Assembly: GCF_002159555.1 (NCBI RefSeq)
Contig: NZ_NFIV01000005.1
Span: forward strand, 1 to 64,000
Reading direction: 5' to 3'
DNA length: 64,000 bases
From: Muribaculum sp. An289
Lineage (GTDB): Bacteria; Bacteroidota; Bacteroidia; Bacteroidales; UBA932
How positions within the stretch are numbered: the first letter of the stretch is position 1; each line of letters begins with the position of its first letter. A program made the position numbers and the translations under genes. Shown in pieces: positions 28,555 through 46,786 of the stretch. The notes under the pieces are model-generated. The model did not search any database and was not told where the DNA came from. It saw nothing but the letters and a program-made list of their open reading frames with translations.

Positions 28555-30342
28555 ATGAAAAACATTAGGAATTTTTCAATCATAGCCCATATCGACCACG
28601 GGAAAAGCACACTGGCGGACAGACTGCTCGAAGCGACCCGCACCCTCAGTGAAAGAGACATGGAAAACCAGGTTCTCGACTCGATGGATCTCGAGCGCGA
28701 AAAAGGCATAACTATAAAGAGCCATGCAATACAGATGGAATATGCCAAAGACGGGCAGAACTATATCCTGAACCTGATTGACACCCCGGGACATGTGGAT
28801 TTCTCATACGAGGTGTCACGCGCCATAGCTTCCTGCGAAGGGGCGCTCCTTGTAGTGGATGCCACCCAGGGCATACAGGCCCAGACCATCTCGAACCTGT
28901 ATCTCGCAATCGAGCATGACCTGACCATAATACCGGTCCTGAACAAGATTGACATGGACTCGGCCATGGTGGATGTCGTAAAAGACCAGGTCGTGGAACT
29001 TCTCGGCTGCGACCCGGACGAAATCATCCTCGCCTCCGGGAAAACAGGCCAGGGAGTGGATGAAATCCTCGATGCGATAGTCGACCGCATTCCGGCCCCG
29101 GACGGAGATCCGGAAGCCCCTCTCCAGGCTCTTATTTTCGATTCCGTATTCAACTCTTTCCGCGGAATCATCGCCTACTTCAAGGTGGAAAACGGCTCCA
29201 TCCGTACCGGCGACAAAGTAAAATTCTTCAATACCGGAAGGGAGTACGAAGCCGACGAGGTCGGGGTTCTGAAAATGAAGCTCGAACCGCGGGACGAGAT
29301 ACCGTGCGGAAGCGTGGGCTATATCATTTCCGGAATAAAAACAGCCGCCGAAGTCAAGGTCGGCGATACCATAACCCATGTGGACAGGCCATGTACTTCC
29401 TCGATAGAGGGATTCGAAGAAGTAAAACCAATGCTTTTCGCCGGAGTCTACCCTGTCGAAGCGGATGAATACGAAGACCTGCGCGCCTCCCTCGAAAAAC
29501 TCCGCCTGAACGATGCTTCGCTCGTTTTCGAGCCGGAATCCTCGCTTGCCCTCGGCTTCGGATTCAGATGCGGTTTTCTCGGGCTTCTGCACCTCGAAAT
29601 AGTCCAGGAAAGGCTTTACAGGGAATTCGACATGGACGTAATCACCACCGTCCCGAATGTTTCGTACAAAGTCTACACCACCCAGCACGAAGTCCTCGAC
29701 GTACACAATCCTTCCGGACTTCCCGCACCTACGCTGATAGACTATATCGAAGAGCCCTACATCAAGGCCCAGATTATTTCGAAAAGCGAATTTTTCGGAG
29801 GCATAATGAAACTCTGCCTCGACAAGAGGGGAACGCTTACAGGACAGCATTTCCTTTCCTCGGACAGGGTCGAACTCAATTATGAAATGCCTTTGGCCGA
29901 GATTGTCTTTGATTTTTACGACAAACTCAAATCCATCTCAAAGGGTTACGCCTCCTTCGATTACCATGTCATCGGATTCAAGAAGGCGGACCTGGTAAAA
30001 CTCGACATCCTCCTCAACTCCGAGCCGGTTGACGCGCTTTCAAGCCTGATACACCGCGAGCACGCATACGATTTCGGAAGGAAAATGTGCGAAAAACTCA
30101 AAGAACTTATCCCGCGCCAGCAATTCGATATCGCCATACAGGCCGCCATCGGAGCGAAAATCATCGCCCGCGAGACCGTAAAGGCCGTGCGTAAGGACGT
30201 GACCGCAAAATGCTACGGAGGTGACATCACCCGTAAAAGAAAACTGCTTGAAAAACAGAAGAAAGGCAAGAAGCGCATGCGCCAGGTAGGCAATGTGGAA
30301 GTGCCTCAGAGCGCCTTCATGGCCGTATTGAAACTCGACTGA
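28555..30342 (+). CDS. lepA: Elongation factor 4 (back-translocating GTPase LepA)
   Basis: 595 residues, normal LepA length. G1 is [10 protein letters not shown]3 [12 protein letters not shown] and G4 NKIDMD; the EF4-specific C-terminal domain ends [20 protein letters not shown] (read in parts). It acts on stalled or mistranslocated ribosomes. The glycosyltransferase gene starts 12 bases downstream, implying one operon. Confidence 0.97.
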
Positions 30343-30353
30343 CATAAAACTTC

Positions 30354-31295
30354 ATGAAGATTTATGCGGTCATAGTGACATGCAATGCGATGAAATGGAT
30401 GGAAAAATCCCTTTCATCGCTTTTCTGCGATAACCGGCACAGCATCAGGCCGCATGTCATAGTTGCGGACAATGCTTCCACGGACGGGACTCTTGAATAC
30501 ATAAGCCGTACTTTCCCCGAAGCCGAGATAATCCGGACGGCAGAGAGCGACGTAAATCCAGACGTAAAGCATGGTTTTACAGCCGCGGCACAGGCCGGGA
30601 TAGACCGTGCCCTTGCATCCGGAGCCGAGGCCGTACTGCTCATGCACCATGATGTCTGGCTCGCTCCAGAGGCTCTGGAAGCTCTCGAAGCCTGCTGTAC
30701 GGACGATTCGCTTCTTGTCCCGGCATACCTGAACGGCCCGGGGACGGATTATGAAACTTCATTCTCATCCAAAACCGTCAGACACTCACGGGAACTCCGC
30801 AAGGCCTTGAAAAAAAACAGGGCAGATGCCGGCAAAATCCGTGTCGGAAACGTCCCGTCGGGCTGCTGGCTCATCCCGGCGGACCTGATTAAGGAAACCG
30901 GCCCGCTCAACCCGTTTTTCGACACGGCTTCAGGCGCGGCTTCCGAATATCTCGCACGTCTGAGATACCTCTCAAAAGGCATCTTCGTCGTTCCGCAAGC
31001 CAGGGTTTTCCACGACAGGGACAGCTACGGGGACAGGACACTTTATGACAAAAACGATATTTTCAAGGATTTGCTGCTCATCGGATGCGACCCGGGAAAA
31101 TGCGGCATCGCCCGCGCCGCCGCAAGGATTTCGCTGTTTTTCGGCCTCATACGCAAGACCGTCCATTACAGGGTGAACCTTTTCCCGACGTACTTCAATG
31201 ATTTACGGAGAATCAGGGCCATGCGGCCGGAATTGCGGAAACTAAGACGGCGATATGAGGATTTTTCCGTAAGTTTGCATTCGGATTCCATCTGA
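30354..31295 (+). CDS. Glycosyltransferase family 2
   Basis: 313 residues with a GT-A fold. It begins MKIYAVIVTCNAMKWMEKSL, followed by VADNASTDGTLEYI for nucleotide-sugar binding, and a metal-site segment LLMHHDVWL (HHD in place of DxD). GNVPSGCWLIP and YLSKGIFVVPQARVFHDRDS follow, as in rhamnosyl- or other surface-glycan transferases. Donor and acceptor are unknown. It follows lepA by 12 bases. The fossil methyltransferase begins six bases after its stop. Confidence 0.85.
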   Translation: MKIYAVIVTCNAMKWMEKSLSSLFCDNRHSIRPHVIVADNASTDGTLEYISRTFPEAEIIRTAESDVNPDVKHGFTAAAQAGIDRALASGAEAVLLMHHDVWLAPEALEALEACCTDDSLLVPAYLNGPGTDYETSFSSKTVRHSRELRKALKKNRADAGKIRVGNVPSGCWLIPADLIKETGPLNPFFDTASGAASEYLARLRYLSKGIFVVPQARVFHDRDSYGDRTLYDKNDIFKDLLLIGCDPGKCGIARAAARISLFFGLIRKTVHYRVNLFPTYFNDLRRIRAMRPELRKLRRRYEDFSVSLHSDSI

Positions 31296-31301
31296 CAGGC
31301 A

Positions 31302-33020
31302 ATGAAAGAAAAAATGTTGACAGGAGTATCTTTGTTTTCGGGAGCAGGCATTGATGAACAATATATTGAAGATGCCGGCGTAAAGATTATTGCCGCCAAC
31401 GAACTTCTTAAAGAAAGGGCCGACCTGTACAGCTCACTGTATCCCTAGTCCAAAATGATTTGCGGGGACATTCTGGATGAGGAAGTATATTCCTCCCTTG
31501 TCAGCGCGGTTCCGGAAAAGATAGACTTCCTTCTGGCCTCCCCTCCGTGTCAGGGGATGAGTGTCGCCGGGAAAAACAGGACCTTGGAACAAATGTGCCA
31601 GGACGAACGTAATTTTCTTATATTCAGGATTATCGACTTTATAAAACTGAAGAATCCGGACTACGTGATGATAGAAAACGTTCCCCGGTTTTTAAGAATG
31701 GAACTGCCTTTCATGGATAAAAAGATGAAAGTGACGGAAATCCTGGCAAACTCATTCCACGAAGATTTTGTTATCGATGCAAAAGTCTATGATGCAGCGG
31801 ATTACGGCGTTCCCCAGCACAGAAACAGGGCCATTATAAAAATGTACCGCAAAGGACTTGCATGGGGAGAACCGGAAAAAAGCCCATGGGTTACAGTCAG
31901 GGAGGCCATAGGACATCTGCCGAGCATAGAAGCCGGAGAATCATCCGACATCAAATGGCACTTCGCAAGAAAACACTCGGCACGTCAGGTCGAAGCCATG
32001 GCGCATACGCCCGAAGGACATTCGGCGTGGGAAAACAAAGACTATTATCCTCAAAAGGAAAACGGGGAAAGAATCAAGGCCTACAGCACCACTTACAGAA
32101 GGATTAAATGGGATGAACCTGCGCCTACAATCACAATGAGGAACGATGCGATAAGTTCCCAAATGAACGTACATCCGGGAAGGAAAAACGATGACGGCAC
32201 ATATTCGGACGCCCGTGTCCTGACTCCTCTGGAGCTGATGCTGCTGTCTTCTCTGCCTGCGGATTGGAACATTCCCGACGATACGCCCGAAATCCTGATA
32301 CGGGAATGTATCGGCGAAAGCATCCCTCCGCTGTTGGTAAAGAAAATAGTCGGACAGATTCAAAGCGACAGACAGACCGCCATGACGAGAATAGAACGCC
32401 CCAAATGGATACTATACAGGCACACAAGCTGTTTCGAATACCTGTGCACGGTCGCCGAGACTTTAAAGTCTTTCTCTAAAACCACCATAACCAACGAAGA
32501 GAAAGCGAGACTGAACCTCAAGCTGAAGGATATGGGACTGTACTCGGAAAGGAATCCGGGCCTGCCCTTGGATGCCATAAACCACAAGATAAACCAGTTG
32601 GCTTATTACATGTTCGGTTACAAGACCCAGATAAATGGCATCAATAGGTTTATGTTCAGCCCATTAGGCAATCTGCTGCTGAAATATGTCCATGACAGGG
32701 ACAAGGTATCGAAAATATTTCTCACAATGCTTTGGGCCCTCCAGTACAGGCATCCGTTCAGCGGAACGGCAAAAGAATTCCGATTGTACCCGTTCAGACT
32801 GACCTATCGGTTGCTTTCGGACGAAAGGCTCGATTATAAAGTGTATGCCTTCGAAGTCGCCTATCTGGTGATATTTACCAAAACGATGGATGAAGAGTCA
32901 TACGAGCGGCTGGTCCGGTCGATTCTGGAACTCCGCAGCCTGTCAGACACCGAATTGACCGACAGATTCCTCCAAGACAGGCATGCCTACGTAAATTCCG
33001 CCTACGAATGGGATTATTAG
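31302..33020 (+). pseudogene. DNA cytosine-5 methyltransferase fused to a restriction-type domain, inactivated
   Basis: The ATG at 31302 opens motif I (SLFSGAGID). After 48 codons an in-frame TAG (31446-31448) interrupts the reading frame, which then continues uninterrupted through motif IV (ASPPCQGMS), ENVPRF, QHRNRAI, a target-recognition region and motifs IX-X to about 32380. A further region of about 200 residues (LWALQYRHPFSGTAKEF, FRLTYRLLSDE) resembles the N-terminal part of AlwI-like type II endonucleases, by impression only. The current stop TAG (33018-33020) takes its last base from the MITE. Removing the MITE and one copy of the TTA duplication joins this frame to the one at 33180. 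Confidence 0.8.
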
Positions 33021-33179
33021 AAGCTGTTTAAAATTTTTTCTCAGAACATTTGAGGCAGGCTTTCGCACAGATTTTTGTCGTTTTTTGAGGAGAATAGCAG
33101 AGCTATTTAACGATAAAAATGGCGAAAATGTGCCGGAATGATGCCGTAAAGAACTTTTGAAAAAATTTTAAACAGCTTC
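33020..33179. mobile_element. 160-bp MITE, copy 1, inserted in the restriction-modification gene
   Basis: Ends are perfect 21-bp terminal inverted repeats beginning GAAGCTGTTTAAAATTTT, flanked by a TTA duplication (33017-33019 and 33180-33182). Inside are further nested palindromes: ATTTTTGTCGTT/AACGATAAAAAT and ATAGC-AGA-GCTAT. No ORF is present. A second copy of exactly the same length lies at 46627-46786. Confidence 0.85.
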
Positions 33180-33993
33180 TTACATCTCCGAATTTTTAAA
33201 AAGCGCAGGGGGCCTGAAGAAAACGAAAGGGGCAGTGATTTGCAAATTGCAGCAGGGAAATACGGCGACCTATAGGAAAATAACACGGAACGCCGTTTCG
33301 TTGCCGGAAAATCTCACCGGCCTTGCAGGCAAATTGCAGAACCGGTACTCATTTTTGGACAAACCCATCCCGATGGATGACAAGGGAAGGCTGCAAATCG
33401 ACATAATCAAGGAAATATACAGTTTTTATCCCGACATACTGCTTTCCGAAATAGGGGAAACGCAGGAAATCGGCAAATTGCTGGAACTGCCGAAACTGAT
33501 AGATCAATATTCCAACAATCCTGAAAACGAAACGGCGTACCTGTTCGAAAACGTCCTGATAGACGGTTTCAACATGTTCTACAACGTCGATGCGAAGGGA
33601 GTCGGCGGTTCAGGACACACAGACATCGAATGCCTGTACCTCGATAAAAAGAAAAAATTTGCGGTAGAATCCAAATCCACGGCAAACAAACTATTGGGAA
33701 TCAACGTAGGACGACTACGGGAACACTGTGAAGAAATCGGAGGCGAATACACGATAGTCGTAACGCCACGGTATGTCCCTGCCGCAAAACGCGACATATC
33801 GGGAACCCCCACGGTGATAATACTGGCAAGCACCTTCGCCGAATATCTTTACAACTGCATTGACAATGATATCCGGAAAATAGATTATGCCGATTTTGAT
33901 AAAATAATAACGGAAAATTTGGGCAAGGACGTAAGCGGCGACATTTCCGCCCTGACAGTTTCCAAGTTTTCAGCATCCGCGGCGGGAAAATGA
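33180..33993 (+). pseudogene. C-terminal part of the disrupted endonuclease (PD-(D/E)xK)
   Basis: From 33181 the frame reads YISEFLKSAGGLKK and continues without a stop to TGA at 33991-33993; the first possible start is a GTG at 33235 (252 codons). GHTDIECLYL followed by FAVESKST is a typical PD-(D/E)xK nuclease core (D...ExK). AKRDISGTPTVIILASTFAEYL near the end adds a restriction-type C-terminal helix. Frame analysis shows it was once continuous with 31302-33019. A truncated protein may still be translated, but without its N-terminal half it is unlikely to be a specific nuclease. Confidence 0.7.
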
Positions 33994-34295
33994 TAGTTAT
34001 TACGAATGAAGACAATATGCAGCTGATGTCGCGGTATCCCGACGGACACTTCGACCTGGCAATCGTAGACCCTCCCTACGGCGTACTCAACAAGACGTCG
34101 CGCGGAGGCGACCGCATACTGGATACGCATCTGGGCAGCGGAACGATAGCCATAGCATGTTACAATGCCGGAATCAGCCTTACAGCCTGCGAAATCAGCA
34201 GAACATATTACGAAAATGCCATAGCGAAAATATCGGAATATATTCCGGCGGACCGAATCGAACTTCTGGAAAACGAATGCAGAATAAGAGGGTGA
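33990..34295 (+). pseudogene. DNA adenine-N6 methyltransferase with its centre deleted
   Basis: 101 residues. The N-terminal part carries the catalytic motif IV, DPPYGVLNKTSRGG (near residues 27-40), and the C-terminal part carries motif I, LDTHLGSGTIAIACYNAG. In intact relatives (about 230-240 residues) these are separated by more than 100 residues, including a conserved W-D and HPTQKP segment, all missing here. The deletion is in frame. The ATG overlaps the nuclease stop (ATGA), so it was part of the same operon. Without its centre it should be inactive. Confidence 0.8.
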
Positions 34296-41650: not shown

Positions 41651-41681
41651 AAGCTGTTTTTAATTTTTCAAAAAGTTCTTT
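41651..41681. mobile_element. Relic of a MITE end
   Basis: AAGCTGTTTTTAATTTTTC followed by AAAAAGTTCTTT matches, with few changes, the reverse complement of the right end of the 160-bp MITE (its last 31 bases). No second end is found nearby. It lies in the divergent promoter region between the lipoprotein gene and the sigma-54-type activator gene. Confidence 0.5.
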
Positions 41682-41704
41682 GGGAAACTTTCGGGTATAT
41701 TTTC

Positions 41705-46626: not shown

Positions 46627-46786
46627 GAAGCTATTTAAAATTTTTTCTCAGAAAATTTGAGACATGTTTCCGTGCAGATTTTTGCCGTTTTTTGAGGAGA
46701 ATAGCAGCGCTATTTTTCGATAAAAATGGCGGAAAGATGCCGGAATGGTGTCACAAAGAACTTTTGAAAAAATTTTAAACAGCTTC
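46627..46786. mobile_element. 160-bp MITE, copy 2
   Basis: Starts GAAGCTATTTAAAATTTT and ends AAATTTTAAACAGCTTC, i.e. the same inverted ends as copy 1 with one mismatch, and the same length. Internal palindromes are kept. The flanks (TGA left, AGA right) give no exact duplication. It inserted 22 bases after the PspC stop. Confidence 0.8.

Follow-up and report, generated by a model that had tools for sequence, protein, structure and literature searches.

What do the three gene remnants at positions 31302-34295 of the 64,000-nt window (the whole stretch of DNA analysed here) represent, and can the way in which they decayed be read? All three lie in the same direction on C32, one contig of a draft genome that totals 2.32 Mb and whose relatives are Bacteroidales. 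Upstream are a gene that we take from its sequence to be lepA and then a family-2 glycosyltransferase gene; downstream is a convergent gene that we likewise take to encode a beta-galactosidase. Our analysis indicates that the locus is very probably what is left of a Type II, Type IIS-like restriction-modification (R-M) operon that lost its function recently; its three genes are those for a C5-cytosine methyltransferase, a restriction endonuclease and an N6-adenine methyltransferase. Methyltransferase and endonuclease genes adjoin, as in Type II systems, and are recognized by PF00145, PF01555 and the PADLOC MTase_II and REase_II models. The reading frames are not intact, and four changes account for this: a nonsense codon (TAG, 31446), a derived fusion of methyltransferase and nuclease, a MITE insertion (33020-33179) and a central deletion of 115 codons.

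Three genes and four changes

The C5 methyltransferase starts at ATG 31302. Its N-terminal 48 codons (31302..31445, + strand) contain motif I (SLFSGAG), match PADLOC model PDLC03384 (2e-14) and are mostly 60-69% identical to the main-clade relatives. The rest of the enzyme (31449..32381, +; Pfam PF00145, 1.6e-42) retains the PPCQG, ENV and QHRNR motifs, is 74-75% identical to the relative L015, and runs in frame into the nuclease. Between the two pieces stands the TAG (31446..31448, +), seen by direct reading and in the alignment to relatives; it is read in the frame set by ATG 31302, which is also that of the remaining part of the gene, and both PF00145 and PDLC03384 match the enzyme on either side of it. 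A sequence-only reading of this DNA had claimed a nonsense codon here, and the relatives bear it out, as they carry an amino acid in this column (Q in the closest intact relative; Q, N, K or others elsewhere). Translation of TAG as a sense codon was considered and ruled out: among the other 39 long ORFs of the window, 9 end in TAG, which is therefore an ordinary stop in this organism. The genome is a draft in 36 contigs and the remaining C5 methyltransferase frame is open and conserved, so that the TAG might be taken for an assembly or sequencing error in a methyltransferase still active as a solitary enzyme. We regard this as highly improbable, given that several independent changes in a single operon fit real decay. 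Whatever the status of the TAG, the operon is broken, since neither a MITE with a target duplication nor a clean in-frame deletion can come from faulty base calls.

The passage from methyltransferase into nuclease is also a change from the ancestral state. No methyltransferase-nuclease fusion was seen among about 40 relatives; where both genes are present, the methyltransferase frame is closed by a stop and the nuclease begins at a start codon of its own, and the in-frame fusion is therefore derived. The earlier description of the nuclease as the fused half of the methyltransferase does not hold as a statement of ancestry. That reading would have been contradicted by intact relatives in which the two halves were always separate genes, and the outcome depends on which halves are meant: methyltransferase and nuclease are indeed separate in the intact relatives, but the nuclease itself is one gene. 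A GACAGACAGACC tandem repeat lies at the junction (32367..32378, +), with the GACAGACA tandem repeat immediately before the nuclease ATG, and a 4-bp duplication at GACAGACAGACC would be sufficient to explain both the lost methyltransferase stop and the fusion. The in-frame junction, well conserved on both sides, could instead mean that the fused protein once worked in this lineage as a bifunctional, Type IIC-like enzyme and decayed only later; we find this unlikely, because 0 of the approximately 40 relatives are fused and the tandem repeat offers a simple mutational route to the fusion. The fused frame is still translatable from ATG 31455, but without motif I.

The split of the nuclease by a MITE, also claimed from the sequence, proved correct. 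The nuclease was a single gene, and both flanking frames match the PADLOC REase model PDLC03533 (473 positions): the N-terminal half, with a putative DNA-recognition role, at 32382..33019 (+; 1.7e-55, model positions 5-210), and the C-terminal half at 33183..33993 (+; 1.5e-90, positions 214-466). YEWD on the left of the MITE and ISEFLKSAG on its right align with the continuous YEWDYYVTEFLKSAG of L015. The C-terminal half is 74% identical to L014 and L015 and carries PD-(D/E)XK-like residues (TDIEC...VESKS), which from motif and fold probably form a PD-(D/E)XK site. The nuclease matches no Pfam or NCBIfam family, a search of solved-structure sequences for its specificity gave no convincing match, and no second copy of it was found in this genome.

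The MITE itself (33020..33179, +) is 160 bp long, as delimited by its multiple aligned copies in the genome, and is flanked by a TTA target site duplication (left copy 33017..33019, right copy 33180..33182, both +) of the TNA type seen at most other copies. The upstream ORF stops at a TAG that is completed by the first base of the MITE, whose terminal inverted repeats are GAAGCTGTTTAAA. The genome contains about nine other near-full copies, and the family also occurs in both congeners examined, again with TNA duplications at most copies. Aligned with 23 other copies, the one in the nuclease shows 3 private differences in 160 positions. An old insertion had been considered from 16 differences to an 8-copy consensus; this was overturned once copies from the congener G394 revealed a shared subfamily, leaving the 3 private changes. 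Short, gene-free and multicopy, with terminal inverted repeats and a target duplication of fixed size, the element has the properties of an IS5-derived MITE. An IS5-family transposase (PF01609, PF13340) is encoded in the same genome at C8:1-732, and the element to which it belongs (C8:1-743) ends in GAATCTGTTTAAATTTT, a terminal repeat nearly identical to that of the MITE, which makes an IS5-type source likely. The MITE thus shares the TNA target duplication and the terminal repeat with IS5-family elements, but carries no gene.

Further members of the family were observed. The window holds a second full copy at 46627-46786 and a fragment at 41651-41704. Elsewhere in this genome (G000), palindromes of about 43 bp consist of a pair of MITE terminal repeats that face each other nearly without a spacer (C32:190161-190203, C36:95217-95259, C13:6925-6967 and C23:11774-11815), and are possibly minimal derivatives of the family. 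The family is abundant in G394, where many contigs end inside MITE copies.

The third gene is represented by a 101-aa remnant of the N6-adenine methyltransferase (33990..34295, +), recognized by a C-terminal match to PF01555 and by alignment to 37 relatives. It retains motif IV (DPPYG) and motif I (DTHLGSGT), and between them about 115 central codons (345 bp) that the intact relatives possess are absent, the gap falling between GGDR-like direct repeats at about 34104-34116; the loss of the centre of this enzyme had been recognized in the sequence-only reading. Both edges of the gap fall in GGDR-like repeats of the intact L015, which fits the loss of a stretch lying between two short repeats.

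Is the operon a fossil, or could it have been switched off reversibly through phase variation or excision of the MITE? The clean TTA duplication would allow the MITE to leave precisely, GACAGACA is a plausible slippage site at which a 4-bp repeat might slip back, and Helicobacter pylori is known to have methyltransferases whose phase variation involves frameshifts (PMC3936762). However, the adenine methyltransferase gene cannot regain its missing 345 bp, a nonsense codon is no switch, the junction repeat has just two to three units, and a nuclease restored without both methyltransferases would harm the cell. A reversible state is thus most unlikely. With permanent decay as the preferred reading, all three activities would have been lost, and the locus is a decayed, non-working member of an ordinary R-M kind.

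Relatives, descent and the order of loss

Relatives were collected by scanning a single genome from each species, which gave 32 loci, nearly all in Bacteroidota; IMG/VR contributed 8 viral contigs, mostly short. The annotated plasmid and phage collections yielded no relatives, nor any match to the locus that would point to a plasmid or phage origin. Where complete, the relatives from the species genomes and viral contigs carry three intact genes. Main-clade operons begin with the C5 methyltransferase (~350-360 aa), which is followed by the nuclease (~482 aa) and the N6-adenine methyltransferase (206-268 aa). Prevotella pallens ATCC 700821 (L014) and the uncultured Bacteroidales contig CALUPD010000037.1 (L015) have the same three genes in the same order and on the same strand, with 65-77% protein identity; unlike the locus studied here, their operons are intact, with separate methyltransferase and nuclease genes and a full-length adenine methyltransferase.

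In a tree built on methyltransferase and nuclease, the closest sister is the operon L015/L070 of genome G403 (74-77% identical; support 100/99), which belongs to another genus within the family and carries the intact operon directly downstream of lepA. The congener G393 has lepA, glycosyltransferase and beta-galactosidase genes with 58 bp in place of the operon. In the other congener, G394, the contig (L067, at the end of C63) stops in a MITE just past the glycosyltransferase gene, next to the expected place of the operon, and no nuclease was found in this genome. This distribution is compatible either with vertical inheritance at the lepA position followed by loss or with repeated insertion at a single site. 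The operon follows lepA in two genera (L070 of G403; window 28555-31302), but a glycosyltransferase gene separates them only in this genus.

The sequence-only reading went further and proposed that restriction was lost before modification, and that the locus records this order. Loss of either methyltransferase while the nuclease is active should be lethal, and restriction presumably failed first or together with modification for that reason. This part of the proposal stands as a logical inference, but the sequence itself does not show the order. Erosion was counted for each gene as deviations at columns invariant in the relatives, with one sequence left out. The locus fared no worse than the intact sister L015: 6/160 against 8/170 in the nuclease, 4/132 against 5/137 in the C5 methyltransferase and 0/37 against 2/106 in the adenine methyltransferase. 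Without measurable erosion, every lesion is recent and no ranking among them is possible; with no gene more eroded than in the intact sister, and a MITE bearing only 3 private changes, the claim of a recorded order finds no support. The ranking of lesions by erosion was accordingly abandoned, and the order of loss is not readable from the sequence alone. What the locus offers is a young and clean case of defence-system decay, for which an intact sister operon is known along with a congener that lacks the operon at the same place. As a decayed operon it is real but unsurprising, and intact versions persist in many related bacteria.

Putative Type IIS-like architecture and comparison with known systems

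A nuclease accompanied by two methyltransferases of different chemistry had been taken to call for an asymmetric target, and this view gains support from the two methyltransferases of the complete relatives and from the fold of the nuclease. An AlphaFold model of an intact relative (mean pLDDT 83, pTM 0.70) is closest to the Type IIS-related nucleases Nt.BspD6I (1.7e-10) and FokI (1.2e-6), in which a recognition part is followed by a C-terminal PD-(D/E)XK domain, an arrangement that the nuclease of the relative may share; identity in the structural alignment is only about 11%, with no match at the sequence level. The full-length TM-score is low (0.37), and the Type IIS reading therefore rests on the predicted two-domain architecture together with the two methyltransferases. 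Two distinct methyltransferases are one solution for Type IIS sites (review, PMC12707154), and the family has two for the two strands: C5 plus N6-adenine in the main clade, two C5 enzymes in others. The model and the gene content support a Type IIS-like system with a putative asymmetric target. The intact nuclease would recognize its asymmetric site via the N-terminal half and cut through the C-terminal PD-(D/E)XK domain, with one strand protected by the C5 enzyme and the other by the N6-adenine enzyme.

In L024, L026, L036, L041 and L069, two C5 methyltransferases (~350-360 aa) precede a nuclease of 480-510 aa, and no N6-adenine methyltransferase gene was detected at these loci. Compared with L024, L026, L036 and L041, the C5 enzyme of the present locus shows 56-60% identity to their first C5 enzyme and 45-49% to their second; for L069 the value is about 46% with both. 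The second-strand methyltransferase may have been exchanged between chemistries within this nuclease family, an unrelated N6-adenine enzyme replacing the second C5 enzyme, with the C5 enzyme of the locus closest to the first; we put this forward tentatively, as a possibility that falls somewhat short of an even chance. If it were true and the target had stayed the same, that strand would have to hold a methylatable A, and the nuclease would have to be blocked by either mark. A nuclease family with interchangeable second methyltransferases would be a more useful lead for restriction-enzyme biochemists than the decay.

Among known systems, those of the HgaI type (HgaI; RM.MhoVI) combine two C5 methyltransferases with a nuclease of ~480-520 aa and an asymmetric site (PMC12376442). 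The loci with two C5 enzymes resemble them in gene organisation; no HgaI sequence turned up in the collections searched. The locus described here departs from the HgaI type in having one C5 methyltransferase: a DPPY-type N6-adenine methyltransferase, placed after the nuclease, stands in for the second.
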